The notes beneath the pieces were generated by a model. It ran no database searches. It was not told the DNA's origin and worked only from the letters and a program-made list of their open reading frames with translations. DNA of 44,188 nt from Vulcanimicrobiota bacterium (GTDB lineage Bacteria; Vulcanimicrobiota; JAJTBE01), in NCBI GenBank assembly GCA_021107945.1, contig JAIORV010000146.1:1-44188 (forward strand), read 5' to 3'. The translations under genes and the position numbers were made by a program. Of the stretch, positions 8,979 through 27,079 are shown piece by piece (the stretch's first letter is position 1; the number at the start of each line of letters is the position of its first letter).

Positions 8979-10214
8979 TTAAACAGCAAGCTCATCAAAA
9001 ATCGATGGATGAATTTCGCCCTTTTCATATTTCTCCCTGAAATAAATTGACCCGGGCAAAAGACTAAATTGGATTATTCCGGTATTAACACCATATTTAT
9101 CCTGCAAATTCCCTGCAAATTTTACGGTTCTATCGGCTTCCTTCTCTGTCTCGCCGGGGATACCCGTCATAAATCTGTATTCTATAGAATCCGCAGGTAT
9201 ATATCGGGAAAGGATACGGGCGGTGTCTTCAATTACTTCTGTTGTATAGCCCCTCTTAATTCTCATCAATCCCCTGTTATAGCCGCATATAGGCTCCATT
9301 ATAATTTTATGGGTAAATTCTCCGATATATTCCGCCAGACTTCCATATAAGAAATCAGTGCATCTTGTCTTAAATATTATCTTTGTTTCAATTTTCGCCC
9401 TATTCTTCCGCATGACTTTTGCGAAGTCAAATATTCTTTTCTCTTTTGCGGTGAAATGCTCGTCAATTATATAGACATAATCGGAATTCACCCGGTCAAG
9501 ATACTCCTGCGCCTTTCTTATTCCCTCGTAAATCCCCGTAGGAGACATAGCCCTCCAGAGCTTATGATGCGGTATCTCGTCAAAAGGGTTATAATACGCA
9601 TCTCCACGAGAAGTTTCAATGGGAATGTGTGAGTACTTACCCCGAGGAAGTGAGCTATAATCAATACACGGCAACTGATCCAACTCTTTATCCCGCAGAG
9701 GCTTTGCATCGCCGTATCGGACGACCTCCCCGTCTCCCTTATATGATATTCCAGGAATTGTTGATAAGTCACCCTTCTTTTTCCTGAGCCACCCGAGCAA
9801 CATAGCCAGGCTTTTTTCCGCTTCTCCCCTCACGCAGAAATCCACCGTTGTTGTGTTCAGAATGTGCTCATCAAATAATGTCGGGTGAATTCCGCCGACA
9901 ATAACGGTAATACCCTTATGCTCTTTTCGTACTTTGTCGATTATTCTTTTATTTGTCGCCCATTGAAGCGAGTTCGAAGAGATCAGGACGCAGTCGAAAT
10001 TACCGCAAGCCTGTATCATTCTTTTTATTTCATCTTCTTGAAATGAGTTCAACTCGAATATTTCATTTTCAACGTGGTTTTTATTGAGAACCGATGAAAG
10101 AAGATAGGCAGAAATATCGGGAAGTTTTTCGTGAGACTGTACTTGTATATGGTCATTTTGATACAAGTATGAACTATCCGGTTCGGTATATCCTGTAATG
10201 AATAATGCTTTCAT
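8979..10214 (-). CDS. B12-binding / radical-SAM-fold protein lacking the Fe-S cysteines
   Basis: Residues ~1-145 are a cobalamin-binding-like Rossmann domain (VIVGGIHPTLF, then DFCVRGEAE). Residues ~195-400 follow the usual radical SAM barrel, including PIETSRG, WRAMSP, VYIIDEHFTAKE and MTGIPGETEKEA. Where the family has GCPxxCxFC this protein reads G204-DAYYNPFD, so the three cluster cysteines are D205, N209 and D212. The rest of the barrel is intact in frame, so it is not a decayed gene. No 4Fe-4S cluster could form at the usual site, so ordinary SAM cleavage is unlikely. It may be a regulatory or binding partner of the neighbouring KamA-type protein. Start ATG has only a weak GGA upstream. 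Confidence 0.85.
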   Translation of the reverse strand: MKALFITGYTEPDSSYLYQNDHIQVQSHEKLPDISAYLLSSVLNKNHVENEIFELNSFQEDEIKRMIQACGNFDCVLISSNSLQWATNKRIIDKVRKEHKGITVIVGGIHPTLFDEHILNTTTVDFCVRGEAEKSLAMLLGWLRKKKGDLSTIPGISYKGDGEVVRYGDAKPLRDKELDQLPCIDYSSLPRGKYSHIPIETSRGDAYYNPFDEIPHHKLWRAMSPTGIYEGIRKAQEYLDRVNSDYVYIIDEHFTAKEKRIFDFAKVMRKNRAKIETKIIFKTRCTDFLYGSLAEYIGEFTHKIIMEPICGYNRGLMRIKRGYTTEVIEDTARILSRYIPADSIEYRFMTGIPGETEKEADRTVKFAGNLQDKYGVNTGIIQFSLLPGSIYFREKYEKGEIHPSIFDELAV

Positions 10215-10368
10215 ATTTTTTCCAGACTCATCAAAGAAGGCATTTTTTCAGACTTGCCTTATTGAGAAAAGTTGATGAGACAATTGAGGGGATTTTTTTG
10301 TCTGTTTTAATCCCCTCCATCTTTCTCTTCGTTAATCATCGGGAACCGATAAAGAATATCCCGGTAAA

Positions 10369-11202
10369 TTAAATAATTCCGGGCATGAATGTTTTTGCTC
10401 TGTAATCACTGAGTCTTGCCGTTGAAAGAGTATCCTGGCATTTGCTCTTGAGATCCTCCGGTATCACTTTGATCAAGCCTATAATCATTTTCTTTACGTT
10501 TTCAACGTTCTTATTGAAGACCTTCATAACCGCATCATGGCTTACGGGTGCTTCTTCTCCCAATACACCCACATCGTAATCAGTTATAAGAGAAATATTC
10601 ACATAACACATTTCAAGCTCGCTGGCAAGATATGCTTCCGGGTAGCCGGTCATATTGATCACTGACCATCCCATCTTTGAGAACCATTTCGACTCGGCTC
10701 TTGTTGAGAACCGGGGTCCCTGGATTACGACCATCGTGCCGGATTCATGGACCGTTATGCCAAGATCCGTTCCCACCTTGTATGCAAGCTTTCTCAATTC
10801 AGGACAATATGGATCTGCTGCGCTTACATGTGTGGTTACGGGACCGTCATAAAATGTATCAATACGCCCTTTTGTCCTGTCCACGAATTGATCGCACAGC
10901 ACAAAATCGCCGGGTTTTACTTCTTTCTTCAACGACCCTGCGGCGCAAGGTCCTATCAGATGTTTGACACCGAGGGCTTTCATCGCCCATATATTCGCTC
11001 TGTAAGGAATCCTGTGGGGAGGCAGGGAATGGTCCTTGCCATGCCGGGGAAGAAACGCCACAGGTCTGCCATTAATAGTTCCCACGGCAATCATGTCACT
11101 CGTGGGGCCGTACGGCGTTTGGACGACTATTTCTTCCATATTATCAAGAAACGAGTAGAAACCCGATCCTCCAAATACACCTATATCAGCTTTATGTTTC
11201 AT
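10369..11202 (-). CDS. mtnP: S-methyl-5'-thioadenosine phosphorylase
   Basis: This enzyme cleaves methylthioadenosine with phosphate to adenine and methylthioribose-1-phosphate. Its 277 residues match family length. Motifs include the GVFGGSGFY phosphate loop at the N-terminus, FLPRHGKDHSLPPHRIPYRAN, GPCAAGSL, VVIQGPRFSTRAES, INMTGYPEA and LITDYDVG; the Asp-x-Asp of TDYD fits 6-aminopurine recognition. AGGAGG lies 7 bases before the ATG. It is first in a same-strand run with the two radical-SAM-type genes. Enzymes of this family can also act on 5'-deoxyadenosine, the by-product of radical SAM chemistry, so a clean-up role next to KamA is a reasonable inference. The 154-bp gap after it contains a 9-bp hairpin (10286-10317) without a T-run. 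Confidence 0.95.
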   Translation of the reverse strand: MKHKADIGVFGGSGFYSFLDNMEEIVVQTPYGPTSDMIAVGTINGRPVAFLPRHGKDHSLPPHRIPYRANIWAMKALGVKHLIGPCAAGSLKKEVKPGDFVLCDQFVDRTKGRIDTFYDGPVTTHVSAADPYCPELRKLAYKVGTDLGITVHESGTMVVIQGPRFSTRAESKWFSKMGWSVINMTGYPEAYLASELEMCYVNISLITDYDVGVLGEEAPVSHDAVMKVFNKNVENVKKMIIGLIKVIPEDLKSKCQDTLSTARLSDYRAKTFMPGII

Positions 11203-13469: not shown

Positions 13470-14021
13470 TTATATTCCCGCAAGATCATCGTCGTCTTCA
13501 TCATCCTGCAATTCTTTTCCAAAATCATCATCTGAAGCGGGAAAGCCTTCGTTAAAGAAGTCGGTGGGTTTGAGATTCTCAATGTATTTCTTGAACATTT
13601 TCTTCTCCCTGTCCTCGGCTCTTGGCTCCAGCACGGTCTCTTCCAGGATAATTCTTTCGGAAACGAAGATAGGGGCGTTAGTTCTGAGGGCAAGCGCTAT
13701 GCTATCCGATGGGCGCGCATCAATTTCGAGATTTTTTCCGCCGGATTCCAGTACTATTTTTGCATAAAATGTATTCTCGTGGATATCATGAATTACAATC
13801 CGCAAGACTTTTGCTTTGAGGGCTTCAATAATTGATTTCATCAAATCGTGTGAAAGTGGACGGGGTATGGGAGTTCCCTCAAGCGCAAGGGCGATGGCTG
13901 TCGCCTCAAAGGGGCCTATCAGTATGGGAAGATATCTCTTCCCCTCTACATCCTTCAATATAACGACAGGATCATGGGACAATAGATCTATCCCCAGCTT
14001 GTCAACTTTCATCTTCCGCAT
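13470..14021 (-). CDS. Bifunctional nuclease family protein (DUF151/BFN domain)
   Basis: Residues ~1-130 form the BFN/DUF151 domain: LPILIGPFEATAIALAL, then RPLSHDLMKSIIEAL, then IDARPSDSIALALRT. This is the conserved core shared with the plant/bacterial bifunctional nuclease family. The remaining ~50 residues are acidic and end in a run of Asp (DDEDDDDL), typical of this family in bacteria. Biochemical nuclease activity has been described for some members, but the cellular role in bacteria is unclear. Two starts are possible (M1 or M4, nine bases apart). The gene is divergent from the ABC exporter genes and ends in a good terminator. Confidence 0.9.
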   Translation of the reverse strand: MRKMKVDKLGIDLLSHDPVVILKDVEGKRYLPILIGPFEATAIALALEGTPIPRPLSHDLMKSIIEALKAKVLRIVIHDIHENTFYAKIVLESGGKNLEIDARPSDSIALALRTNAPIFVSERIILEETVLEPRAEDREKKMFKKYIENLKPTDFFNEGFPASDDDFGKELQDDEDDDDLAGI

Positions 14022-14181
14022 AAATAATCACTCTCTTCAATCTTGTTAAAATAAAAACTACTATACTGTTGCAAAATTAATGTACATCACGAAAAAATAA
14101 CTTCTAATTCTTCACCCAAAATCCTTCTTTATATGGGTCAAATATACAAGGAGATCTAACCACAAAAACGAAAACATCCGC

Positions 14182-15315
14182 GTGGATATTATCTTTGATG
14201 CTTTTAGAAACTTATGCAGAAGGAAATTCAGAACACTGCTTGCCGTGTCAGGCGTAGCGGTGGGAATTTTTGCTTTTCTTGTCATGGGGGCGATGGCGGA
14301 GCATTTTCGCAGAATATCCGTCCAGTTCGAATATTTGTTCGAAAACAGGATTTTTATATGCGAACGTCTCTCATTCTGGGCAGGCGGAGGGATTCTCTCC
14401 GAGGCAAAGTTGAAAAAAGTGAAAGAAATCCCCGGAATTGAAGAAGCCATCCCGATGTTGATCTCCCGTTGGTCGGATGAGAGAATGGTCGTTGTGGGCT
14501 TGCCAAGGGTTGTGGTGGGACTTCCGCTTGAAAACATAAAAAGTATAATCGGAAGATTTCGAGTTATAAGTGGAAACTTGGCTCTGAACGACAAGGAATC
14601 AGTCATCGTCGGGTATGACCTGGCGCAAGAAAACAAGCTTTCAACAGGCAGCAAGGTAAAAATAGGAAACGAAGATTTTATTGTATCGGGTATCCTTGAA
14701 AAAACGGGAGGGCTATATGACGGACAGATGTTTATAAGACTGTCGGAAGCCCAGAAAGCATTCCATAGGAAAGACTTGATAACAAGTATAATGCTTATAC
14801 CTTCACCCCGGGTCGATCCTGAAAAATTGTCTGTAGAAATAAAAAACCGTGTTAAAGGAATCGAGGTAATACCCCCTTCCAGGATAAAATCACAAATTCG
14901 CTCCTCCCTATCATTATGGAACGGACTGACATTCGGAGCGGCATTCACCGCATGCGTTGCAGGCGCGCTTTGTGTTATTATTATAATGCTTGTATCGGTT
15001 TCAGAAAGAGCAGTTGAAATTGGGTTGAAACGGGCAATTGGAGCCGCAACCTCCCATATTATGCTGGAATTTCTATCGGAAGCTGTAATGGTTACAGTTT
15101 CAGGATGGTTCATCGGCAGTATTGCCGGGTGGTTTTTTATCTGCATTCTCACAAGATGGCTTCATTCTATGGGATCAAACCTCTTTGATCTGACTCCCAG
15201 ACTTTTTGTCACCGCCCTTGTTGGGGTGGTCGCGCTGGGTTTATTATCGGGATTATACCCGGCTCTTCGTGCCGCTTCAATTGAACCTGCGGAAGCTTTA
15301 AAGGTAAGATACTAG
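14182..15315 (+). CDS. ABC transporter permease, FtsX/MacB type
   Basis: The architecture is that of LolCE/MacB permeases: one N-terminal membrane helix (about 17-38), a large extracytoplasmic domain (about 40-245), and three C-terminal helices (about 248-275, 290-325, 340-365). Family motifs are RRKFRTLLAVSGVAVGIF at the start, the coupling-helix region EIGLKRAIGAATSHIM, and YPALRAASIEPAEALK at the end. The start is GTG; the only good AGGAG lies ~25 bases upstream, so the initiation site is not certain. The ATPase follows after 10 bp. No periplasmic adaptor gene is adjacent, so this is more likely a lipoprotein- or peptide-type mechanotransmission exporter than a full drug pump. Confidence 0.93.
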   Translation: MDIIFDAFRNLCRRKFRTLLAVSGVAVGIFAFLVMGAMAEHFRRISVQFEYLFENRIFICERLSFWAGGGILSEAKLKKVKEIPGIEEAIPMLISRWSDERMVVVGLPRVVVGLPLENIKSIIGRFRVISGNLALNDKESVIVGYDLAQENKLSTGSKVKIGNEDFIVSGILEKTGGLYDGQMFIRLSEAQKAFHRKDLITSIMLIPSPRVDPEKLSVEIKNRVKGIEVIPPSRIKSQIRSSLSLWNGLTFGAAFTACVAGALCVIIIMLVSVSERAVEIGLKRAIGAATSHIMLEFLSEAVMVTVSGWFIGSIAGWFFICILTRWLHSMGSNLFDLTPRLFVTALVGVVALGLLSGLYPALRAASIEPAEALKVRY

Positions 15316-15325
15316 GAGTTTTTAT

Positions 15326-15997
15326 ATGCTTGAGGTAAAAGATCTTTATAAAACATATAAATATGCAAATGTAAAAATACATGCGGTTAATGACGTGAGC
15401 TTCAATATACGTACAGGAGATATTGTAAGTATATTCGGAAGATCGGGAAGCGGCAAGACAACTCTGCTGAATTTAATAGGAACACTGGACAGACCTGATT
15501 CAGGAGAGATTATTATTAACGGCAAGAATACTCGAGAAGTTTCAGGTTCAAAGCTGGCGGCATTTCGAAGAAGTAATATCGGGTTTGTATTCCAGTATTT
15601 CAATTTGATACCGTACCTTACCGCCATAGAAAATGTTGCCCTGCCCCTGAAATTCGACGGCGTGGCACGATCTGAGAGAAACCGGCGGGCAAAAGAAGTG
15701 TTAGAAGAAATCGGACTCTCGAAGCGACTTGATTTCAAACTTGCCGGGCTTTCCGGAGGACAGGTTCAAAGAGTTGCGTTTGCAAGGGCCATTATAGCAA
15801 AACCTCGAATTGTTCTTGCCGATGAGCCCACGGGCCAGCTTGATTCGAAAACCGCTGAAAACCTTGCCGAGACAATTGTTAATTTAAATAAAAAGAGCAA
15901 TATAACATTTATCATCACCACACACGACCCGGTTATCTCATCAATTGCAAACAAGATAATTTATTTTGAGGACGGAAAGATTCAAAAAAAGGAATAA
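15326..15997 (+). CDS. ABC transporter ATP-binding protein, LolD/MacB type
   Basis: All nucleotide-binding motifs are present: Walker A GRSGSGKTT (about 38-46), Q-loop FVFQYFNLIPYLTAIEN, signature LSGGQVQRVAFARA (about 142-155), Walker B IVLADEPTGQLD, and switch histidine in TTHD. At 223 residues it has the length usual for LolD-like ATPases. AGGAG is 7 bases before the ATG, and the gene is translationally close to the permease, so the two make one exporter. A 208-bp gap with short repeats (16071-16092) follows before the propeller-DUF6754 gene. Whether they share a transcript is unclear. Confidence 0.96.
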   Translation: MLEVKDLYKTYKYANVKIHAVNDVSFNIRTGDIVSIFGRSGSGKTTLLNLIGTLDRPDSGEIIINGKNTREVSGSKLAAFRRSNIGFVFQYFNLIPYLTAIENVALPLKFDGVARSERNRRAKEVLEEIGLSKRLDFKLAGLSGGQVQRVAFARAIIAKPRIVLADEPTGQLDSKTAENLAETIVNLNKKSNITFIITTHDPVISSIANKIIYFEDGKIQKKE

Positions 15998-16205
15998 GGA
16001 AGATGGAAAAAGGAAGAAGGATAACGAATCGCGCTTCCATTGTCTCCTTTCTTTTATCCATTATCCTTAACTCTGCGAACTCTGCGGTGAATTGTTATGT
16101 GCAGGCAAGAAGGAAAATAGCCTTGTTAAACGAATGAATCAATACCTTAAAGTACTGTCTTTTTTTTAGTTAAAAATTTATCATTACCCGGAGAGAGGTA
16201 GGCGC

Positions 16206-18974
16206 ATGGTGAATAAAAGGAAATATCGGTTCCTGTTGACCACAATGATTGTTCTGGCAATATCTATTTTATGTGCCGGGAAAGCATTTGCCGGTAGAAA
16301 CTGGTCTGAACAAGCTTTCGACAAACAAACCGGTATCACGGTCATCGGTGCCGAGAATAAATTCGCAAGAGTTTTCGGCATAAGCATTCTGAACAAGAAA
16401 GTTTTATGGCAAGTGGGAATGCCACAAAGCCGCGGGATAGATATACACATAGAAGATGAAAAGGTCTATCTGGTTTCCCCCGAGGATGTCCGTTTTCAGA
16501 AGACTATGAGGGCGGTCAACATCGCAACAGGAGAAACTTACTGGGCCAACAGGCTTAAGAAAAACAAGCGAAGAACAAAGGTTTATTATGATGACAATAC
16601 CCTTTATTTTGCAACAGAGGAAAAATACAGGGATATAATTAAAGTCAAGCTATACGCCTTTGATAAAGAAACAGGAAAGACGAGATGGACTCCCTACTGG
16701 ATCAGGGGAACTTTCAAGGAGATGCTGAGAACGGAAACCGGAGATTTCATCCTTATAGTTCTGGCATCACAGAAAACTGAAGGTGGGAAAGATCTCAAAC
16801 ATACGGTAAAATCGATTAAAATAGATAAGAATACCGGTCTGGAGGTATGGGAAAGGCCCATAGAAGGCTCCTTCGTATCATTCCCCAAGGAAAACAGCGG
16901 TGTTATCTATTTTATTACACAGAAAATAATCGATAATGTACAAAAAATGACATTCCAGGCAATTAATGCAGAGGATGGCTCGGTTCTTTCCACTCATGAA
17001 ATTCCGGAAGGGGAAAAACCTCTTGGAGATGCCATATTTTACCAGGGAAAACCAATAATAACAATGGAAAGCGGAAAAGTTTTCTACATTGACGGCACTA
17101 AGACGGATATTTCAGAGATGGTTCTCTGGGAAAAGAATCTTGATTCCCTTCCCGTATTTGGTCCGAAAATTATCGAAAATCTTGTTCTGGTTGCTACGAT
17201 GAAAACCAACTACCTGATTTCAATTGACGAGATCGTTGAATGGGAAGGACTACTTTCTCAATTAAAAGAGCATAATACGCCGGCAACATCAAGAATATGG
17301 GAACTCCTGGATGAAAATACAAGAAGCGTAATTGATGGGATAACATCCCCCGAAGAATTGAATGAAAACAGCAGACTTACAATTATCGAGGGATTGAACG
17401 GCATAATAAGTAACAAAGAATTCTATGCAAGGGAATCTTTTAAAGAAGTTAAGCTTGCCAATGAAGTCAATACACTCTTAAATAGATTCTCAAAACTCGA
17501 TGAAAATAAAATACAACGACTGAACAGATGCCTGATGGAATCGATTTTAGTAAGAGAAATATCCCAAAACAGGTACTATATTCATGCACTGGATGCCTCG
17601 ACGGGAAAATCTCTCTGGGAAAAGCCTTATATGGTCGAGGGCACCCTCGAATTGCCCGTATTCATCGAGGGTGATCGTCTTATTGTGGGCTCCCGTTCTA
17701 AAAAAGAAGAGGGAGAGGGAAAGAATAAAACAACGAAGCAGATGTTTCGCATTGTTGCTCTTGACCCTGCAAACGCAAGAGAGATGTGGAAACAGGAGCA
17801 GGAGGGAAAGCTTGAGAATCCCCTTTCAATAAAAGATCAAATGCTCTATGTTATGCTTTATAGGAAAGTTGAGGAAAATGATGTAGTAAAACCAGCTCAC
17901 CTTCTTATAGCAATAAACATCGGGGACGGCACGGAAAGATGGACATATGCAACCAAAACAGTTATTAACACAAAGCTTTATGTTGATGAAGACAGTGTTG
18001 ATTTTGGAACCAAAGCCGGGTTCGCAACTTCCGTCGGTCTTGTTGATGGAAAAAACATTTACAAGTTCTTTGCGGGAATCAACAACGAAATGGATTCCTC
18101 AATAGTTACAGTACAAAATCTGTTGGGATTCGCCACCCAGGACGGAAAATACTTTATCCTTACGAAGCAGGGTAAGAAAGTAAAGGCATTCAACCTGAAA
18201 CCCTGGTTTGCCCTGTGGAAACTCCCCATCTTCATAGGCTGTCTCCTCCTTTCCTCGGCTTTATCGTGGTATATATATCACGCTCGCAAAGGAAAGAAGA
18301 TGTTCATTCGCAGAATTGCCGGACTCACGGCAATCGACGAGGCGGTCGGACGCGCTACAGAGATGGGTAAGCCCGTGCTCTACATCACAGGTCTTGCTGA
18401 TGTTGATGATATACAGACGCTTGCCTCTCTTTCTATCATGGGACATATAGCCCAAAAAACAGCAGAATACGACACACCGATTATTGTGCCATGCTGTCGT
18501 TCTGTTGTAATGAGTACGGCGCAGGAAGTCGTGAAAGAATCTTACCTGAAAGCCGGAAGACCGGATACTTATCGCAAGGAGAATATCCATTATCTCACAG
18601 ATGACCAGTTCGGTTATGTAGCGGGTGTTGACGGTATCATGGTTCGTGAGAAGCCCGCCGCCAACTTCTATCTGGGTAAATTCTACGCCGAGTCCCTTAT
18701 TCTCGCCGAGACAGGTCACTCCACGGGAGCGATTCAAATTGCCGGCACGGCGGAAGCGGCGCAATTGCCGTTCTTTGTAGCCGCCTGCGATTATACTCTC
18801 ATAGGTGAGGAATTATTCGCGGCATCGGCATACCTCTCCAAGGATCCTCAACAGATAGGATCCCTTAAAGGTCAGGACATTGCCAAGGCGATTATGCTGG
18901 CGGTAATTATTATCGGATGCATATTGCTCACATTTGATATTGACTGGATGAAGCTTCTGCTCTCCACCCAATGA
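16206..18974 (+). CDS. Exported beta-propeller fused to a DUF6754-like membrane domain
   Basis: A signal peptide (MVNKRKYRFLLTTMIVLAIS, cleavage near AFA at 29) leads into ~640 residues of PQQ/quinoprotein-like propeller repeats with Trp-centred strands (GKTRWTPYW, TGLEVWERPI, GKSLWEKPY, GTERWTYA). A coil-rich insert at about 345-445 interrupts the propeller. A membrane helix at about 672-692 is followed by ~200 residues matching what I know as DUF6754 (GLTAIDEAVGRATEMGKP, VPCCRSVV, GAIQIAGTAEAAQLPFFVAACD, LIGEELFAASAYL) and a last helix at about 893-915. Predicted topology puts the propeller outside and the DUF6754-like part in the cytoplasm. The three membrane genes downstream run in the same direction. 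Function unknown. PQQ binding itself is not implied. Confidence 0.82.
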   Translation: MVNKRKYRFLLTTMIVLAISILCAGKAFAGRNWSEQAFDKQTGITVIGAENKFARVFGISILNKKVLWQVGMPQSRGIDIHIEDEKVYLVSPEDVRFQKTMRAVNIATGETYWANRLKKNKRRTKVYYDDNTLYFATEEKYRDIIKVKLYAFDKETGKTRWTPYWIRGTFKEMLRTETGDFILIVLASQKTEGGKDLKHTVKSIKIDKNTGLEVWERPIEGSFVSFPKENSGVIYFITQKIIDNVQKMTFQAINAEDGSVLSTHEIPEGEKPLGDAIFYQGKPIITMESGKVFYIDGTKTDISEMVLWEKNLDSLPVFGPKIIENLVLVATMKTNYLISIDEIVEWEGLLSQLKEHNTPATSRIWELLDENTRSVIDGITSPEELNENSRLTIIEGLNGIISNKEFYARESFKEVKLANEVNTLLNRFSKLDENKIQRLNRCLMESILVREISQNRYYIHALDASTGKSLWEKPYMVEGTLELPVFIEGDRLIVGSRSKKEEGEGKNKTTKQMFRIVALDPANAREMWKQEQEGKLENPLSIKDQMLYVMLYRKVEENDVVKPAHLLIAINIGDGTERWTYATKTVINTKLYVDEDSVDFGTKAGFATSVGLVDGKNIYKFFAGINNEMDSSIVTVQNLLGFATQDGKYFILTKQGKKVKAFNLKPWFALWKLPIFIGCLLLSSALSWYIYHARKGKKMFIRRIAGLTAIDEAVGRATEMGKPVLYITGLADVDDIQTLASLSIMGHIAQKTAEYDTPIIVPCCRSVVMSTAQEVVKESYLKAGRPDTYRKENIHYLTDDQFGYVAGVDGIMVREKPAANFYLGKFYAESLILAETGHSTGAIQIAGTAEAAQLPFFVAACDYTLIGEELFAASAYLSKDPQQIGSLKGQDIAKAIMLAVIIIGCILLTFDIDWMKLLLSTQ

Positions 18975-18983
18975 TATATGACT

Positions 18984-19007
18984 ATTCCAGGGATTTATCC
19001 CTGGAAT
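18984..19007. other. Perfect 11-bp hairpin with 2-nt loop inside the membrane operon
   Basis: ATTCCAGGGAT and ATCCCTGGAAT flank a TT loop, ten bases after the propeller-DUF6754 stop and 38 bases before the next ATG. The T-content after it (TTAATTAATC) is weak for a terminator. It has the same 2-nt-loop build as the dispersed palindromes. It could trim or stabilise the transcript, or partly terminate between gene 1 and gene 2. Confidence 0.6.
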
Positions 19008-19045
19008 TTAATTAATCCTTTCGATCTGGTAAAAGGAGCTGGATA

Positions 19046-19690
19046 ATGAGAAGAGAAATTCCGATGGCAATTACGACCATCACCGGAGTTATAATGATTG
19101 TCGTGTTCTTTGTTCCCATGTGGGGGCACTGGAGCGATATTTTCTTGAAATGGTTCACGGTTATAGCTGGATTCGCCCTTGTCCTGGGAGCGGGCAGTCT
19201 CCTCCTGGTTAACCTCAATAAAATCAGCAGGAAAGCTTCCGGGTGGGGTTACAATGTGATACTTATTCTGGGGCTTTTTGTAATGGCGGGTCTGGGCATA
19301 TTTCAGGGAATCAAGCCCGGCACCCCCTATGACTTCATCTTCAGATATATCTTCACCCCTCTGTCCGCAACAATGTTCAGCCTTCTGGCGTTTTATATCG
19401 CTTCGGCTGCATTCAGAGCGTTCAAAGCGAAATCACCGGAAGCGGCTCTTTTGCTAATAACCGCTTTTGTGGTTATGATAGGGCGAGTGCCTATTGGCGA
19501 GGTTATGTGGAATTGGCTTCCCTGGGCAAAAGCATTACCTTTGACAACAATTATCGAGGATTGGGTAATGGGTTGCTTCAATACCGCAGGACAAAGAGCG
19601 ATTATGCTTGGAGCTTCCATTGGGATAATATCGACTTCCCTGAAAATATTACTTGGAATCGAGAGATCTTATCTTGGTGGAGGTGAATAA
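19046..19690 (+). CDS. Polytopic membrane protein of the DUF6754-linked set
   Basis: I do not recognise a named family. The 214 residues give about six hydrophobic helices: about 8-25 (ITTITGVIMIVVFFVPMW), 35-55, 68-86, 103-122, 130-145 and 190-207. Charged residues are few, and two conserved-looking segments are GRVPIGEVMWNWLPW and PLTTIIEDWVMGCFNTAGQR. AGGAG is 7 bases before the ATG. The next gene starts three bases after its stop, with that gene's GGAGG inside this reading frame, so the two are translationally coupled. It is probably an integral subunit of a complex with the propeller-DUF6754 protein. Confidence 0.85.
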   Translation: MRREIPMAITTITGVIMIVVFFVPMWGHWSDIFLKWFTVIAGFALVLGAGSLLLVNLNKISRKASGWGYNVILILGLFVMAGLGIFQGIKPGTPYDFIFRYIFTPLSATMFSLLAFYIASAAFRAFKAKSPEAALLLITAFVVMIGRVPIGEVMWNWLPWAKALPLTTIIEDWVMGCFNTAGQRAIMLGASIGIISTSLKILLGIERSYLGGGE

Positions 19691-19693
19691 GGA

Positions 19694-20521
19694 ATGTTTG
19701 AAAAACTACAAAACCTTGACCGCAGATGGATATTCCTTTTTGTTTTACTTTCAGTTATTATTCCGCTGTTGTTTCCCCTGGGTCTTAAACTTCATACAAG
19801 CCCTCCGGTTGAGGATATATACAACTATATCGAGAATCTTCCCGAGGAAAGTGTGATACTTGTCAGTTTTGATTACGGACCTTCAACCGAAATCGAATTG
19901 AATCCCGCTGCAAAGGCAGTTGTGCGTCACGCTTTCAGAAAAAAGATTAAAGTTGTTACTATGGCTCTGTGGCCGATGGGGGCGCAGATGTCACAAAATG
20001 TTATGAAAGAAGTGGCGGAGGAATTCGACGCTGAATATGGCAGAGATTATGTCAACCTAGGGTATAAAGCCGGTGGAAGTGTACTTTTGTTAAGTCTGAA
20101 AAGCGGCTTTGCCCAGCAGTTTCCCACCGATGTAAACAATGTTCCGCTATCCGATCTTCCCCTGATGAATAAGGTGAAAGATTACAACAACTGTGCCTTG
20201 GTTGTAAGCCTATCGGCCGGTGTGCCGGGAATCAGGGAATATGTTCTTATCGTCAACACCCAATTCGGAAAAACAATGGCAGGGGCTTGTACGGCGGTTA
20301 CCGCTCCGGAGATGTACACATTTTTAAACTCAGGACAGCTTATGGGACTCATGGGTGGACTCAAGGGTGCGGCGGAATATGAAAAGCTTGTTGGAATTGA
20401 GGGTAACGCCAGGAAAGGTATGGATGCACAATCAGTCGTACACCTGGTTATTGTCTTGTTTATTATTCTCTCCAACATTATCTATTTTGTAGGTGAATAC
20501 AGGCGAAAAAGGATGGAGTGA
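19694..20521 (+). CDS. Bitopic membrane protein with large alpha/beta domain, DUF6754-linked set
   Basis: An N-terminal helix (about 11-30, WIFLFVLLSVIIPLLFPLGL) and a C-terminal helix (about 245-265) bracket a ~200-residue alpha/beta domain. That domain has strand-like segments ESVILVSFDYG, KIKVVTMALWP, GGSVLLLSL and CALVVSLSAG, and a segment FGKTMAGACTAVTAPEMYTF. With a positively charged N-terminus (FEKLQNLDRR) and tail (EYRRKRME), both ends are probably cytoplasmic and the domain extracytoplasmic. No catalytic signature is visible. The gene follows the previous one by 3 bp. A 188-bp gap with an ACCACGAAG-type repeat (20535-20553) separates it from the next membrane gene. Confidence 0.85.
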   Translation: MFEKLQNLDRRWIFLFVLLSVIIPLLFPLGLKLHTSPPVEDIYNYIENLPEESVILVSFDYGPSTEIELNPAAKAVVRHAFRKKIKVVTMALWPMGAQMSQNVMKEVAEEFDAEYGRDYVNLGYKAGGSVLLLSLKSGFAQQFPTDVNNVPLSDLPLMNKVKDYNNCALVVSLSAGVPGIREYVLIVNTQFGKTMAGACTAVTAPEMYTFLNSGQLMGLMGGLKGAAEYEKLVGIEGNARKGMDAQSVVHLVIVLFIILSNIIYFVGEYRRKRME

Positions 20522-20534
20522 GTCTGAGGAAATT

Positions 20535-20553
20535 AACCACGAAGGACACGGAG
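20535..20553. repeat. ACCACGAAG-type repeat fragment within the operon
   Basis: The string AACCACGAAGGACACGGAG belongs to the same short-repeat family as 11231-11263. The gap 20522-20709 also holds AT-rich text with short iterations of GGAGAATGGATTA. Nothing coding is visible. Confidence 0.6.
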
Positions 20554-20709
20554 ATAATTATATGTCGATAGCGGAGTTCTTCAGAACTCAATTAAGGGAT
20601 TACGAATAAACGAATAACGGAGAATGGATTATGGAGAATGGATTACAAATACTATTTCCAACCTCTATTTTCTAATTTCCATCTTCTATTTTGAAAGGGG
20701 AATTTTCGA

Positions 20710-21480
20710 ATGATACTGGCAGGATTGTCAAACTTGAGCGGCATTTCCACGCTGGCAATGGCGATAGGACAACAAATAACAATGAAACATATTGTTGGAA
20801 CTTGGATTGCCGCGTTTCTCACAATCTGCATTTTCAGCTTCCTATATGATGACAACCCCCTGTATAAATTCGCCGAGCATCTGTTTGTCGGCGTATCGGC
20901 GGGCTACATCATTGCAACAACATACAGAAATGTCATGGTACCCAACCTATACGGCAACATTAAAACGGGAGTCATGATCCTTGTAAAGACAGGATCTTTC
21001 CAATGGCAATACTTGTCGTTTATCCTCGCCGGAGTGATGGGGATTATGTTGCTTATGAAACTTGTACCCAAATTCAACTGGATTGCAAGATGGCCCCTCT
21101 CATTCATGGTGGGAACGGCATCCGGATTGGGCATTGTATTTACAATGGAGGCGCTTGTATTAAAGCAGGTAGATGCAACATTGGTTCCCCTTCTTGTGAG
21201 GACGGCTTCAAACAGTATTCAATGGAGTAGTACAGTTCAAAATTGGTTCATGGTGTTAGGTGTATGTTCCGGGCTTATATATTTCTATTTCTCGAAAGAA
21301 CACAAAGGCTTATTCTTTGGTACATTCTCAAGGATTGGGATCTATGTACTGATGATGGCATTCGGCGCGGCGTTCGGATACACCGTAATGGCTCGTGTCT
21401 CACTCCTCATCGGAAGAATGCTTTTCTTCAGAGACCAGTGGTGGCCGGTGTTCAAGGCAACCTTTGGCATTGAAGGATAG
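20710..21480 (+). CDS. Polytopic membrane protein, last gene of the DUF6754-linked set
   Basis: Not recognised by family name. The 256 residues give about seven hydrophobic helices, with short polar links. A recognisable block is NPLYKFAEHLFVGVSAGYII (about 49-68) followed by TYRNVMVPNLY. Another is RWPLSFMVGTASGLGIVFTM (about 127-146). The C-terminus has a further helix with FGAAFGYTVMARVSLLIGR. AAGGGG precedes the ATG by 8 bases. It runs in the same direction as the two membrane genes and the propeller-DUF6754 gene before it, and I infer that the four products assemble in the membrane. No transport or catalytic motif is visible. Confidence 0.83.
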   Translation: MILAGLSNLSGISTLAMAIGQQITMKHIVGTWIAAFLTICIFSFLYDDNPLYKFAEHLFVGVSAGYIIATTYRNVMVPNLYGNIKTGVMILVKTGSFQWQYLSFILAGVMGIMLLMKLVPKFNWIARWPLSFMVGTASGLGIVFTMEALVLKQVDATLVPLLVRTASNSIQWSSTVQNWFMVLGVCSGLIYFYFSKEHKGLFFGTFSRIGIYVLMMAFGAAFGYTVMARVSLLIGRMLFFRDQWWPVFKATFGIEG

Positions 21481-21606
21481 AGCATCGTAACAACAAACCG
21501 ATTAACTCCGGAAATCAAGGATTTAGACCGGCATCAGCAAAACATACGAAGATGACAACCGCAAAACAATGCCAAACCTCGCAGGCTATCATCGGGTCCT
21601 CCCCAT

Positions 21607-21658
21607 GGTAGCACCGGCATCTTGCCACGACAATCGAGGCTTCAAGCCTCACCTACAG
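21607..21658. repeat. GTAG...CTACAG dispersed repeat in a 494-bp gene-free gap
   Basis: The sequence runs from GGTAGCACCGGCATCTTGCC through hairpin GAGGCTTCAAGCCTC to CTACAG, closely matching 35529-35580. The surrounding gap 21481-21974 also has a hairpin at 21856-21871 (stem CAGGTC) and no supported gene. Confidence 0.7.
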
Positions 21659-21974
21659 ATAGCTTATCTTTATTTATTGGTTTATCCAAAAATGCAGATA
21701 AAGTCTTCAGACCTCCGCATTTATAGTCCCTGCCCAAAATTAAATACAATATATTGGCGGGCATAAACAGTCTGTCCCGTGACTATAAATGCTTGAATGT
21801 TTTACAAGCCGACTTTGAATTTGACTCAATCGTCCATATTTAACCCGGGTAGTCGCAGGTCTCCTGACCTGCCAAGCTTACCGGGTTTCCGGGAATAGCC
21901 GGAAGATCAGCCCCTACCCAGCTTGAAGGCAATCCGAGAATTATACGAGAAGCCAGATCGATTCTTGAAATAAA

Positions 21975-22169
21975 TTGACCTACATTTTGAGTTATTGGAT
22001 GGACTGTAAAGACCAGAGCGATGTGATGGGGGACTTTTTAAAAAGTTATGAGGAAGCAGCTCCTGCATTGAGTTATATTGTCAAGCCTGTTGATTTTGAT
22101 GCGTTTTTTATGGCTTACGCAGATATGGGACTCCACTATCTGGTTTTGAACCAACCACAATATTACTAA
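21975..22169 (+). pseudogene. Remnant of a CheY-like response regulator (C-terminal part)
   Basis: The frame encodes YIVKPVDFDAFFMAYADMGL then HYLVLNQP. This is the last third of a small response regulator: the conserved Lys-Pro of the REC domain, then the C-terminal helix and the LGLYWLxLNxP ending common in the Rcp1-like subfamily. The phosphoacceptor Asp and the first two thirds are absent, and text upstream of 21975 shows no matching frame. Alternatively a short protein is still made, but no Shine-Dalgarno is seen. It sits 27 bp before the hybrid kinase, so the kinase operon probably once began with this regulator. Confidence 0.7.
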
Positions 22170-22196
22170 ATATCTGCAATAATTTTTGGGGGAAAT

Positions 22197-25100
22197 ATGA
22201 AAAAGAAAATTCGCATTCTTATACTGGAAGATGTTCCGGCCGACTATGATTTATTAGTGCATGAAGTTCGCAAGGCAGGAATTGTATTTATATCAAAACG
22301 AGTTGAAACAAGAGAAGACTTTCTTAGAGAACTTGATGAATTCGCTCCCGATATCATTCTCTCGGACTACAAACTTCCAGGTTTCGATGGAATGAGCGCA
22401 CTTCGCCTGAAGAATGAGCATGCTCCCTCAACTCCCTTCATTATCGTTACAGGTTCTATAAATGAAGAAGTGGCTGTAGAGTGTATTAAAGCCGGTTCTG
22501 ATGATTATGAGTTAAAGGAAAATCTTATCCGTCTCTTTCCTGCGATTAAAAAAGCGTTAGAAAACAAACAAATCAAGGATAATAAAGAACGTGCAGAAAC
22601 GGCGTTGCAGGAAAGCGAGGGACGATTCAGAGCCATGATGGAGCAGTCTCCAATCGCCGTCCAAATGATGACTCCCGATGGCAGGATTGTGCAGGTCAAT
22701 GATGCCTATCTGAAACTCTGGGGGTTTACCCCGCAGGTCATGCAGCAGGTCTATAGTGAGTACAACATTCTCCAGGACGAGCAGGTCAGGAGCCTGGGGC
22801 TTATGCCATACATTGAAAGGGCATTTGCGGGTGAGGCTGTCTCCCTGCCACCGTTTGAGTATGACGCCCTGGAGACCATGAAAACAGAGGGGGGAAAACG
22901 TTGGATTCAGTCTTTTATATATCCTGTTAAGGACAAAAACGGGAAAATTCAGAATTTATTCATGATGCATGAAGACATCACCGAACGCAAGAAGCACCTG
23001 GAAACTATGAAGCGATACCGCTTTCTTTTAGAGTCCCTCACCGATGGTGTTCTCATCATTGATCAAGAATGGCGATATCTTTCGTTAAATGATGAAGTTG
23101 CCCGAATGGTTCAAATGCCGAAGGAGAAACTAATAGGGAACAAGATGACCGATTTGTTCCCGGGCATAGAGCATACCGTCTTCGGCAAGACTTACAGCCA
23201 GGTGCTGGAAACTGGCGAACCTGCCACTGCTTCTGACGAATTTACCTTTTCAGACGGGCGGAGGGGCTGGTATGAGGTACAGGTTTTCCCCGCCACAGAA
23301 GGCCTTCTTATCATAGTGGCTGACATCACCGAACGCAAGCGGGCACAGGATACACTTTTTGCTGAAAAAGAACGACTTGAGGTAACTTTACGCTCAATCG
23401 GTGATTGCGCGATTGTTACCGATAATAATGGAAAAATAGAGCTTGTCAATAAAGTTGCAGAAGAATTAACCGGATGGACCCAACAAGAGGCTATAGGCAA
23501 ACCCCTTAATGAGGTCTTTTGTATCATTAACGAAAAGACCGGAAGACCCTGTGAAAATCCTGTGGAAAAGACAATTAGTTCAGGCAGGATTATCGGACTT
23601 GCAAACGACACGGTTCTCATAGCAAAAGACGGCACTGAGAAAATCATAGCCGACAGCGCCGCCCCTATACGGGATAAGGATGGCAATGTTATTGGAGTGA
23701 TCCTGGTATTTCACGATATAACGGAAAAGAAAAAGGCGGAGAAGGCACTACAAAAGGCTCATGATGAACTGGAAATTCGAGTTCTGGAAAGAACTGCAAA
23801 TCTATCAAATGCAAATAAGCTTCTCCAGGAAGAAATCGCGGAACGCAACCAGGTGGAGCAGGCACTGCGGGATAGCGAGGAACGTTTCAGGAATTTCGTT
23901 GAGAATTCCAATGATATAATTTATACATTAAATAAAAATGGAGTATTTCTTTATGTTTCCAGTGGATGGACAAGAATTCTGGGGCATGATATCAAGGATG
24001 TTGTTGGTAAACCTTTGGCACCTTTTATCCATCCGGATGATGTGCCGGTATGCTTTGCTTTCCTGAAAAAGGTGATAGATACGGGAGAACCGCAAGGCGG
24101 TGTTGAATACAGGATAAAGCATTTGGACGGCACACTGAGATGGCATGCTTCCAATGCCTCCTGCATAAAAGATGAAGATGGTAACGTATTATATTTTCTT
24201 GGTATTTCCCGCGACATCACCGAGCAAAAACGGGTAGAGCAGGCACTGCGGGAGAGTGAGAAGAGATTCCGGGATTTATCCGAGAGCACAAGCGATTGGA
24301 TATGGGAAGTAAACGAAAATGCGCAATATACTTATACCAGCCCCGTGATAAAGAACCTACTGGGGTATGAACCGGAGGAAGTAATAGGCAAAACACCCTT
24401 TGATCTGATGTCCAAAGAAGAAGGGCAACGAGTCGGGAAAATCTTCGCTGGAATTGTAGAAAAGCGAGAACCTTTCTTCCACCTGGAAAATAATAATCTT
24501 CATAAGGACGGTCGCTCGGTTTATCTCGAAACAAGCGGTGTTCCGATTTTCGACGAAGCTGGAAGTTTCAGAGGTTACAGGGGTATTGATCGCGATATAA
24601 CACAGCGAAAAGAGACGGAAGAGGAATTAGACAAATACCGTGCAAATCTCGAAGAGAAGGTAGAGGAACGCACCAAACAATTAGAGAATGCAATCGAATT
24701 ACTTCATGAGGAAATTGACAACCACAAGAAGTCGGAGGAAGAGTTAAAGAGAAAAATGGCGGAGCTGCTAAAAACACAAAATGAACTTGAAGCCGTCAAC
24801 AAGGAGCTGGATTCCTTCACCTATACCGCCTCACACGATCTGAAAGAACCATTGAGAGGAATAGTGGCATTCTGCGGATTTCTCATGGAAGATTACCAGG
24901 ACAAGCTGGATGATACAGGGAAAAATTATCTAAAACGTATTACAGCATCCACAGTCCGTTCGATAAATTTGATTGATGACCTACTTATTCTGTCCAGAAT
25001 TTCCAGAATCAGGAATCCCTACATCTCGGCTGATTCCGGAAGAATTGTCAAAAATGCAATAAGACGACTTGACCCCATTCTTGAAGAGAGAAAAGTCAGG

Positions 25101-25478
25101 ATTATTATTGATGATGAACTCCCGTATATTTCCTGTGATCTGATAAAATTAACAGAGGTGTTTTATAACTTTATATCAAATTCTATCAAATATAATGATA
25201 AACCAAATCCTGTTATTGAAATTGGTTTTATGCAATCGGAAGCAAAGGAACCGGAGACAACCTTTTTTGTCAAGGATAATGGCATAGGGATTAATAAGGA
25301 GTATTTCGATAAAATATTCAAAATCTTCAGGCGCCTTCATACCCGAACGGAATATGGAGGAGGCACCGGTGCAGGGCTTGCTATTGTAAAAAAGATTATT
25401 CATGAGCATGGGGGGAAGATATGGGTTGAATCGGAGGAAGGCAAGGGAACAACATTTTATTTCACGATACCCCAATAA
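22197..25478 (+). CDS. Hybrid sensor histidine kinase: REC, five PAS domains, HisKA, HATPase
   Basis: A receiver domain occupies about 4-122, with phosphoacceptor D57 in IILSDYKLPG. Five PAS units begin near 139 (RFRAMMEQSPIAVQMM), 272 (RYRFLLESLTDGVLII), 392 (LEVTLRSIGDCAIVTD), 563 (RFRNFVENSNDIIYTL) and 690 (RFRDLSESTSDWIWEV); coiled coils sit around 513-560 and 808-870. HisKA has the phospho-accepting H880 in ASHDLKEPLR. The ATPase has an N-box (NSIKYN), G1 (VKDNGIGI) and G2 (GGTGAGLAIVKKI). No membrane helix or signal peptide is visible, so sensing is cytoplasmic. GGGGG precedes the ATG. It forms a same-strand cluster with the next two genes. Ligands are not predictable from sequence. Confidence 0.94.
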   Translation: MKKKIRILILEDVPADYDLLVHEVRKAGIVFISKRVETREDFLRELDEFAPDIILSDYKLPGFDGMSALRLKNEHAPSTPFIIVTGSINEEVAVECIKAGSDDYELKENLIRLFPAIKKALENKQIKDNKERAETALQESEGRFRAMMEQSPIAVQMMTPDGRIVQVNDAYLKLWGFTPQVMQQVYSEYNILQDEQVRSLGLMPYIERAFAGEAVSLPPFEYDALETMKTEGGKRWIQSFIYPVKDKNGKIQNLFMMHEDITERKKHLETMKRYRFLLESLTDGVLIIDQEWRYLSLNDEVARMVQMPKEKLIGNKMTDLFPGIEHTVFGKTYSQVLETGEPATASDEFTFSDGRRGWYEVQVFPATEGLLIIVADITERKRAQDTLFAEKERLEVTLRSIGDCAIVTDNNGKIELVNKVAEELTGWTQQEAIGKPLNEVFCIINEKTGRPCENPVEKTISSGRIIGLANDTVLIAKDGTEKIIADSAAPIRDKDGNVIGVILVFHDITEKKKAEKALQKAHDELEIRVLERTANLSNANKLLQEEIAERNQVEQALRDSEERFRNFVENSNDIIYTLNKNGVFLYVSSGWTRILGHDIKDVVGKPLAPFIHPDDVPVCFAFLKKVIDTGEPQGGVEYRIKHLDGTLRWHASNASCIKDEDGNVLYFLGISRDITEQKRVEQALRESEKRFRDLSESTSDWIWEVNENAQYTYTSPVIKNLLGYEPEEVIGKTPFDLMSKEEGQRVGKIFAGIVEKREPFFHLENNNLHKDGRSVYLETSGVPIFDEAGSFRGYRGIDRDITQRKETEEELDKYRANLEEKVEERTKQLENAIELLHEEIDNHKKSEEELKRKMAELLKTQNELEAVNKELDSFTYTASHDLKEPLRGIVAFCGFLMEDYQDKLDDTGKNYLKRITASTVRSINLIDDLLILSRISRIRNPYISADSGRIVKNAIRRLDPILEERKVRIIIDDELPYISCDLIKLTEVFYNFISNSIKYNDKPNPVIEIGFMQSEAKEPETTFFVKDNGIGINKEYFDKIFKIFRRLHTRTEYGGGTGAGLAIVKKIIHEHGGKIWVESEEGKGTTFYFTIPQ

Positions 25479-25491
25479 AGGAGGAGCATCA

Positions 25492-25944
25492 ATGAAAAGT
25501 CCAAGCATGAGATCTATCAACATATTGTTAGTTGAAGATAATGAAGATGACATATTTATTATCAGAAAAATTTTTGAAAAGGCAAATGTTACGAATATGC
25601 TTAATGTCGTCCGCAGAGGGGAGGAAGCCCTTGATTATATCAATCATCGGGGCAAATACGCTGAAGAAAAGCCGCCGACTCCAGGATTGGTATTACTCGA
25701 TATAATGATGCCCGGGTTAAACGGTTTTGATGTACTCAAAGAACTGAAAGCAAGCCCAAAGCACAAAAAAATTCCAGTTGTAATGCTGACTACTTCCAAC
25801 CGTGAGGAAGATATTGTCAAAAGTTTTGAAAACGGCGCATGTTCATATATAACAAAACCAATTAGTTTTGACAGGTTTTTTGAAGTCATTAAACAATTCA
25901 AAATATACTGGACGATGGTTTCAAAAATACCTAACGGTTATTAG
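25492..25944 (+). CDS. Single-domain response regulator (Rcp1/CheY-like)
   Basis: This 150-residue REC-only protein starts at the ATG at 25492, where GGAGGAG lies just upstream; a longer frame exists but overlaps the kinase end. The acidic pair is in LLVEDNEDD, the phosphoacceptor Asp in LVLLDIMMPG, the Thr in VVMLTTS and the Lys in YITKPISF. There is no output domain. Placed 13 bp after the hybrid kinase and 19 bp before a REC-kinase, it is likely a phosphotransfer intermediate between the two kinases. Confidence 0.93.
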   Translation: MKSPSMRSINILLVEDNEDDIFIIRKIFEKANVTNMLNVVRRGEEALDYINHRGKYAEEKPPTPGLVLLDIMMPGLNGFDVLKELKASPKHKKIPVVMLTTSNREEDIVKSFENGACSYITKPISFDRFFEVIKQFKIYWTMVSKIPNGY

Positions 25945-25963
25945 CATATATGGAGATAATCAA

Positions 25964-27079
25964 ATGGAAGATAGGGCAGTTAGAATCCTGCTGGTCGAAG
26001 ACAATCCCGATGATGTATATATAATTCGCAGGATGTTATCGGGTATCACACCCACCAATTTCGATTTAATGCATGTCATGCGACTTAACGAAGCGATAGA
26101 AATTCTTCTTGAAAATAAATTTGACATTGTCCTTCTGGATCTCAGTCTGCCTGACAGCCAGGGACTTGACACTTTTACCGAGCTCAACAGAAAAACACAG
26201 AAATCCCCAATTATAATTCTGTCCGGTCTCAACGATCAAACGATAGCCATGAGGGCTGTCCATGGGGGAGCGCAGGATTACCTTGTGAAGGGTGAAATAA
26301 ATAAGGACAAGCTAATGCGATCTATTCGTTATGCCATCGAACGGCATAATTTGAAAAAGGATTTAATTGCTAAAAATCATGAGTTGGAGGATTTTGCATA
26401 TATTGTATGTCATGAGTTAAAAGGACCACTCACTATTTTTGTTGGCTATCTACATTTTATCAAAAATAATCCACCCAAGATTAAAGAATACTTTAACCCG
26501 ATTATTGATGAATGCAGCAGAATGGATAAATTTATCAAGAATATCCTGAATCTTTCCAAAGCAGGGAATTTAATAAATGAGAAGATAGAAATTGATCTGG
26601 GGGATTTGCTAAAAAGGGTATTTTTACATGTAAAACCCCAGGATTTTTCAGTGGACTTCACTATTGCTCCTTCAATTGGCCACATTATAGGTGACCCGGA
26701 AAGAATAGAACACATTTTTTCTAATTTAATCAACAACTCAATTCAACACCGTGATCCTGAGAAGGAAAAGCTGATAATTAATGTAGGAGCGGAACAATGC
26801 GGGGGGAATATTATTATTTCTTTTAAGGATAATGGACGTGGGATAGAGAAGAAGCATATTAACAATATCTTTGATCTCGGTTTCACCCTGGGCAAAGAAA
26901 GTGGTTCAGGCTTTGGTCTGGTGATTGTAAGGAAAATTGTGGAGGCTCATAATGGCAGGATATGGGCTGAAAGCAAGGGAAAGAACCAGGGCGCTGAATT
27001 CTTCATCAGACTTCCCCTGAATATAGAAGATAAATTTCAATATTTTAAAAGAAAAGAAGCATTCTTTCCTATTCTATGA
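25964..27079 (+). CDS. REC-HisKA-HATPase hybrid histidine kinase
   Basis: The best start is the ATG at 25964 (GGAGA 7 bases upstream), giving 371 residues. A receiver domain fills about 4-125 (LLVEDNPDD; phosphoacceptor in IVLLDLSLPDS; Lys in YLVKGE). A phospho-His motif, VCHELKGPLTIF, follows near residue 145. The ATPase has NLINNSIQH, FKDNGRGIEKKH and GSGFGLVIVRKIV. There is no membrane segment. A receiver in front of a kinase suggests its activity is set by the phosphorylation of that receiver, fitting a relay from the upstream kinase. It is convergent with the HEAT-repeat gene, 14 bp apart, so its terminator is not obvious. Confidence 0.93.
   Translation: MEDRAVRILLVEDNPDDVYIIRRMLSGITPTNFDLMHVMRLNEAIEILLENKFDIVLLDLSLPDSQGLDTFTELNRKTQKSPIIILSGLNDQTIAMRAVHGGAQDYLVKGEINKDKLMRSIRYAIERHNLKKDLIAKNHELEDFAYIVCHELKGPLTIFVGYLHFIKNNPPKIKEYFNPIIDECSRMDKFIKNILNLSKAGNLINEKIEIDLGDLLKRVFLHVKPQDFSVDFTIAPSIGHIIGDPERIEHIFSNLINNSIQHRDPEKEKLIINVGAEQCGGNIIISFKDNGRGIEKKHINNIFDLGFTLGKESGSGFGLVIVRKIVEAHNGRIWAESKGKNQGAEFFIRLPLNIEDKFQYFKRKEAFFPIL

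Follow-up and report, generated by a model that had tools for sequence, protein, structure and literature searches.

A widespread, undescribed eight-gene envelope system with a DUF6754 membrane quartet and a long MutL protein

The window, i.e. the whole stretch of 44,188 nucleotides that was analysed, is contig C46 of a 5.56-Mb draft genome (98.6% complete) of a Vulcanimicrobiota bacterium. It carries four genes, termed A, B, C and D, which form one half of a real, widespread and undescribed envelope system of eight genes. An earlier note, made from the sequence of the window, had presented the four genes as a candidate new system. A dedicated membrane set is indeed present, but four more genes belong to it, including the only ATPase candidate, and these are found on another contig. 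There is high confidence that ABCD, a long MutL-type protein and a protein termed H constitute one functional system.

This is an ancient module that is present across many uncultured phyla, sometimes in 5–7 copies per chromosome, and for which no name, function or paper was found in the literature searched. Linking DUF6754 with three unnamed membrane families, a GlmL-type protein put to a new use and tandem arrays of four genes makes one testable system of eight orphan families.

The ABCD quartet

The four open reading frames are on the same strand and encode 922, 214, 275 and 256 amino acids; their ends, strand and lengths are all as first described. Each is preceded by a Shine-Dalgarno-like sequence. 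The stop of B (19690) and the start of C (19694) are consistent with translational coupling of this pair. The gaps are 71 nt between A and B and 188 nt between C and D. A scan for promoters and terminators gave a site count no higher than in shuffled sequences. The features are:

16206–18974, + strand: gene A, 922 aa; exported propeller, transmembrane (TM) helix, DUF6754 and C-terminal TM helix
16206–16292, + strand: signal peptide of A, predicted by eye (...GKAFA|G); hydrophobic core at residues 9–27 by hydropathy
16293–18190, + strand: PQQ/BamB-like beta-propeller region of A, extracytoplasmic; match to PQQ_2
18201–18953, + strand: TM helix of A (18207–18263) and cytoplasmic DUF6754 with a second TM helix (18879–18935); profile match and hydropathy
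19046–19690, + strand: gene B, 214 aa, with six hydrophobic stretches; conserved motifs FRAF(R/K)A, GQRAIM(I/L)G and GIERSYLGG
19694–20521, + strand: gene C, 275 aa; TM helix, extracytoplasmic Rossmann-like domain, TM helix; start 3 nt past the stop of B
20710–21480, + strand: gene D, a polytopic protein of 256 aa; conserved motifs FSFLYxDN, FxFSxxHxG and GASFGYTVMARISLLIGR

A scan of genome contigs that used only the DUF6754 region gave at least 558 relatives, of which 80 were retained, nearly all from uncultured phyla. Together with other copies in some of the genomes, 121 DUF6754 copies were examined, and 101 of these have room for further genes downstream. B, C and D are next to DUF6754, in the same order and on the same strand, in 92 of the 101 copies, which come from about a dozen phyla among the matches listed. 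Homologs are thus not scattered singly, and ABCD is therefore a real and ancient unit. Carriers include Zixibacteria, Cloacimonadota, Riflebacteria, Fermentibacteria, WOR-3, Wallbacteria and Coatesbacteria, among others; the plasmid and phage records searched have no DUF6754.

Distances for the four proteins are correlated with one another (r = 0.81–0.92 in 94 quartets, at most 0.12 when permuted). At loci with several quartets (mean 2.3 copies per locus), 942 of 1080 comparisons gave the same nearest copy for B, C or D as for A. The paralogous quartets have diverged as whole units. In Zixibacteria, two or three quartets stand in tandem.

DUF6754 genes that lack B, C and D in their vicinity were seen in Fermentibacteria and Eisenbacteria (L057, positions 10007–10735, and L072, positions 10052–10780). 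Both genomes have the long MutL, and these genes may be solo or rearranged forms.

Residues 666–916 of A are a full-length DUF6754 domain (PF20539; 411 bits, E-value = 1.9e-123, against a Pfam gathering score of 27 bits). Pfam names this domain alone, without function, partners or operon. The exported propeller, the TM helix and DUF6754 described in the earlier note are all present, but the TM helix is not the only one, as a second is found near the C-terminus (residues ~892–910). The positive-inside pattern (53 and 57 sequences) places DUF6754 inside the cytoplasm and the domain of C outside.

DUF6754 is 57%–79% identical to the window copy across phyla and has a mean column identity of 68%, versus 33%–43% for B, C and D. 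The ectodomain of A differs by lineage: some members of the window's phylum have a propeller and Riflebacteria a linker, and elsewhere it is FN3-like (one copy is above the Pfam cut-off, the other calls are by eye). The propeller is a lineage-specific ectodomain and not a defining part, since in the majority of lineages its place is taken by a linker or by a short domain resembling fibronectin III. In the window, the propeller is of the PQQ_2 type (79.7 bits, cut-off 27.6). It differs from BamB in that A is far below the cut-off of the NCBIfam BamB equivalog (40.7 bits, cut-off 285), only the general PQQ_2 domain passing, and in its fusion to DUF6754.

A structure model of DUF6754 has a pLDDT of 68 with residues 145–200 unresolved, and its structure-search matches were meaningless. 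A homology between DUF6754 and C was considered, as the two have a similar order of secondary structure and a similar C-terminal stretch. It is not claimed, because profile comparison gave a probability of at most 1.2%.

B, C and D match no family above cut-off in Pfam or NCBIfam. Hydropathy agrees with six helices in B; D displays five strong hydrophobic segments, where seven helices had been counted. C does have a large alpha/beta domain, but it is not bitopic, as two TM helices flank the domain (AlphaFold pLDDT 93.7). Six residues of C are invariant in the alignment (D60, E68, P71, G96, D118 and G222), and in the AlphaFold model these are at or adjoining strand ends or helix starts. This placement would be that of ligand-binding Rossmann folds. 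A structure search with C yielded generic Rossmann/GT-B matches alone (best E-value = 1.6e-3, TM-score below 0.5).

The second half and its linkage to ABCD

Clustering of neighbouring genes added four further families that recur: c16 (~140 aa, with two TM helices), c5 (~115–165 aa), the long MutL (~605–624 aa), which is a GlmL/MutL-family ASKHA protein with an extra C-terminal domain, and H (~375 aa), which is weakly similar to barrel-sandwich domains. A first guess that the recurring 617- and 375-aa neighbours were DnaG and RpoD was discarded when Pfam gave MutL and a barrel-sandwich protein.

PF13941 matches the long MutL of the window genome over the full domain with 426 bits, and that of a Riflebacteria locus (L027) with 402 bits. 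The motifs DCGSTTTK, DIGGATTD and GSGGV are invariant, i.e. the ASKHA phosphate and adenosine motifs are intact; the long MutL is therefore the only candidate energy source or switch of the set. In H, the RnfC_N match is below the cut-off of 25.6 bits (20 bits for the L027 protein, 14.9 bits for that of the window genome), and the best E-value for NQRA_N is 0.03.

In a relative (G013), all eight genes form a single run, A-B-C-D-c16-c5-MutL-H (L106). Riflebacteria (L027) and Fermentibacteria (L044) also have runs of seven or eight genes. Contig C52 of the window genome carries c16, c5, MutL and H together (18286–22391, equal to L105 6287–10392), unlinked to ABCD, and in Cloacimonadota c5-MutL-H is apart from ABCD. 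The halves are joined in some lineages, in either order, and apart in others; thus they appear as two modules.

Presence and absence of the two halves were compared in the window's phylum. DUF6754 is above cut-off in 18 of 149 genomes and H is present in 18 of 147, with 17 in common. H is thus found in 17 of 18 DUF6754 genomes versus 1 of 129 others (Fisher p = 4e-20, not corrected for relatedness). Ten families show the pattern, and the two exceptions are drafts (67% and 61% complete). The long MutL was detected in 34 of 37 DUF6754 genomes, most of which had been picked because MutL is not adjacent; of the three others (G154, G172 and G173), H is present in G154 and G173. Four complete chromosomes (three of Zixibacteria, G175, G186 and G187, and one of WOR-3, G178) have 5–7 DUF6754 copies and exactly one long MutL and one H.

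The separation of the halves in both the window genome and Cloacimonadota, and the phylogenetic clustering of the carriers, would also suit a stand-alone ABCD complex whose association with MutL-H reflects common ancestry only. This is very improbable, given that the halves are linked in several distant lineages, with A–D before or after MutL-H, and that presence and absence agree within one phylum.

Natural fusions of 927–1001 aa have a MutL domain followed by an H domain; a contact between MutL and H is therefore predicted. These paralogs form a family in Cloacimonadota, Zixibacteria and relatives that is undescribed in the literature searched (L139, 7050–9953, − strand; L140, 7821–10823, + strand; L141, 8322–11168, + strand; L142, 7453–10233, − strand). 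The neighbours checked beside them have no common theme.

Possible function of the system

The proposed mechanism is as follows. A, B, C and D would form an inner-membrane complex in which the ectodomain of A and the Rossmann-like domain of C, by their predicted topology and fold, face the envelope space. B and D would be its polytopic core, and the DUF6754 domain of A a putative cytoplasmic docking face. One cytoplasmic pair, the long MutL-type ASKHA protein and the barrel-sandwich adaptor H, may serve all quartets of the cell, with c5 and c16 helping the pair at the membrane. The pair is predicted to bind, and probably hydrolyse, ATP, and could drive or gate the membrane complex. The complex in turn may move or remodel a small ligand or a lipid-linked substrate at the inner membrane, and specificity would differ with the quartet and its ectodomain. 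With a constant core, a variable ectodomain and several quartets to one MutL-H pair, the arrangement suggests that a common cytoplasmic unit serves interchangeable membrane modules.

Taken as a whole, this reading, in which an ATPase serves an inner-membrane complex and the complex moves or remodels its ligand, is a tentative one, short of an even chance. Several observations go against it: no subunit resembles a known transporter, no conserved substrate-linked gene was found beside the loci examined, a few DUF6754 genes (e.g. at L057 and L072) are without B-C-D, and in three DUF6754 genomes no long MutL was detected.

An ectodomain that varies while the cytoplasmic domain is almost invariant, and a single MutL and a single H for several quartets, would also be expected of a sensory system. 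Here A, with its interchangeable ectodomain, and the periplasmic domain of C would read a cue that DUF6754 relays to a shared MutL-H output. Such a system is unlikely. The conserved set has no recognisable output domain (kinase, cyclase or DNA-binding), two polytopic proteins would be superfluous for a sensor, and in Riflebacteria the ectodomain is no more than a linker. Transport or remodelling is preferred to sensing alone because two polytopic subunits would fit movement across or within the membrane better.

The presence of an ASKHA-fold protein alongside four membrane proteins and small peripheral ones brings to mind a structural or cytoskeletal anchor, in which MutL, like the actin-fold proteins PilM or FtsA, docks on membrane proteins and places or assembles an envelope structure. 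The homology of MutL is to GlmL and not to PilM or FtsA, and pilin, secretin and divisome families are absent among the recurring neighbours; an anchor is clearly unlikely.

The match to the GlmL family (PF13941) itself raises cobalamin-enzyme repair, with MutL as a B12-mutase reactivase and ABCD supplying or exchanging the cofactor at the membrane. This is more improbable still. The window genome and most carriers have no glutamate mutase (PF06368), and where the enzyme is present, it adjoins a different, separate GlmL of ~500 aa and not the long form. The long form is only ~31% identical to the GlmL type, versus 61%–71% identity among phyla, and reaches 237.8 bits with the GlmL equivalog NF040745 (cut-off 475). 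A role of the long MutL as glutamate-mutase reactivator was thus rejected, and it should not be annotated as a glutamate-mutase subunit.

The system might represent a new class of ATP-driven membrane machine, in which an actin-fold (ASKHA) ATPase and a barrel-sandwich adaptor power several interchangeable four-protein modules by the shared-motor logic of ECF transporters without an ABC protein. This is possible but doubtful. The comparison with ECF transporters is an analogy only: several membrane modules are served by one common cytoplasmic unit in both, but the eight conserved proteins include no ABC ATPase and no recognisable T or S component.

Known systems and neighbouring elements

No such system was found in Pfam, NCBIfam, PADLOC, PHROGs, PDB or the literature searched, and no characterised complex with the same four parts as ABCD; the earlier view of an undescribed membrane system holds. 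No known system in these libraries and this literature has its parts. PADLOC-DB gave no match for any of the eight proteins, and there is no defence, phage or plasmid association. Profiles of A, C, MutL and H found nothing credible among PDB sequences, and literature searches on DUF6754 and on a GlmL pairing gave nothing relevant.

The closest relationships are of single proteins. GlmL/MutL (PF13941), which is accessory to glutamate and ornithine mutases, shares its ASKHA domain with the long MutL, where the nucleotide motifs are intact. The long MutL differs in its size (~605 aa), its extra C-terminal domain, the lack of a mutase partner and its linkage to membrane genes. H has a weak similarity to the barrel-sandwich domains of RnfC, NqrA and biotin/lipoyl proteins, but is below the cut-offs, has no matches to Fe-S or flavin domains, and sits with MutL, to which it is fused in paralogs.

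Two genes of an ABC exporter are located upstream of A:

14182–15315, + strand: MacB/FtsX-type permease, profile match (MacB_PCD and FtsX); not part of the system, not conserved with ABCD
15326–15997, + strand: LolD/MacB-type ABC ATPase, profile match; not part of the system, not conserved with ABCD

The earlier note had suggested that the exporter may belong with ABCD; both are on the same strand and only 208 nt apart. That they form one export system is extremely unlikely. The exporter is beside ABCD in the window only, and at no other locus examined; at L108 a DUF151-type gene is near DUF6754 with no exporter between them. In addition, the gap between exporter and A contains a copy of a dispersed repeat.

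This intergenic copy is at positions 16071–16091 (CTCTGCGAACTCTGCGGTGAA). The repeat, CTCTGCGNNCTCTGCGGTGAA, has 101 exact matches in the genome (47 forward and 54 reverse); the reversed pattern, used as a control, has 0.

The DUF151-type gene, named by eye as bifunctional-nuclease-like, is at 13470–14021 (− strand) in the window and at 14015–14506 (+ strand) in L108. It is divergent near gene A in several genomes of the phylum (also at L061 and L088), and in the window the exporter came between the two.

Finally, a frame of 56 residues at positions 21999–22169 (+ strand) resembles, by eye, the C-terminal end of a response-regulator receiver. It may be a gene remnant in the ~700-bp non-coding stretch 3′ of D; intact response regulators are present at 25402–27079.
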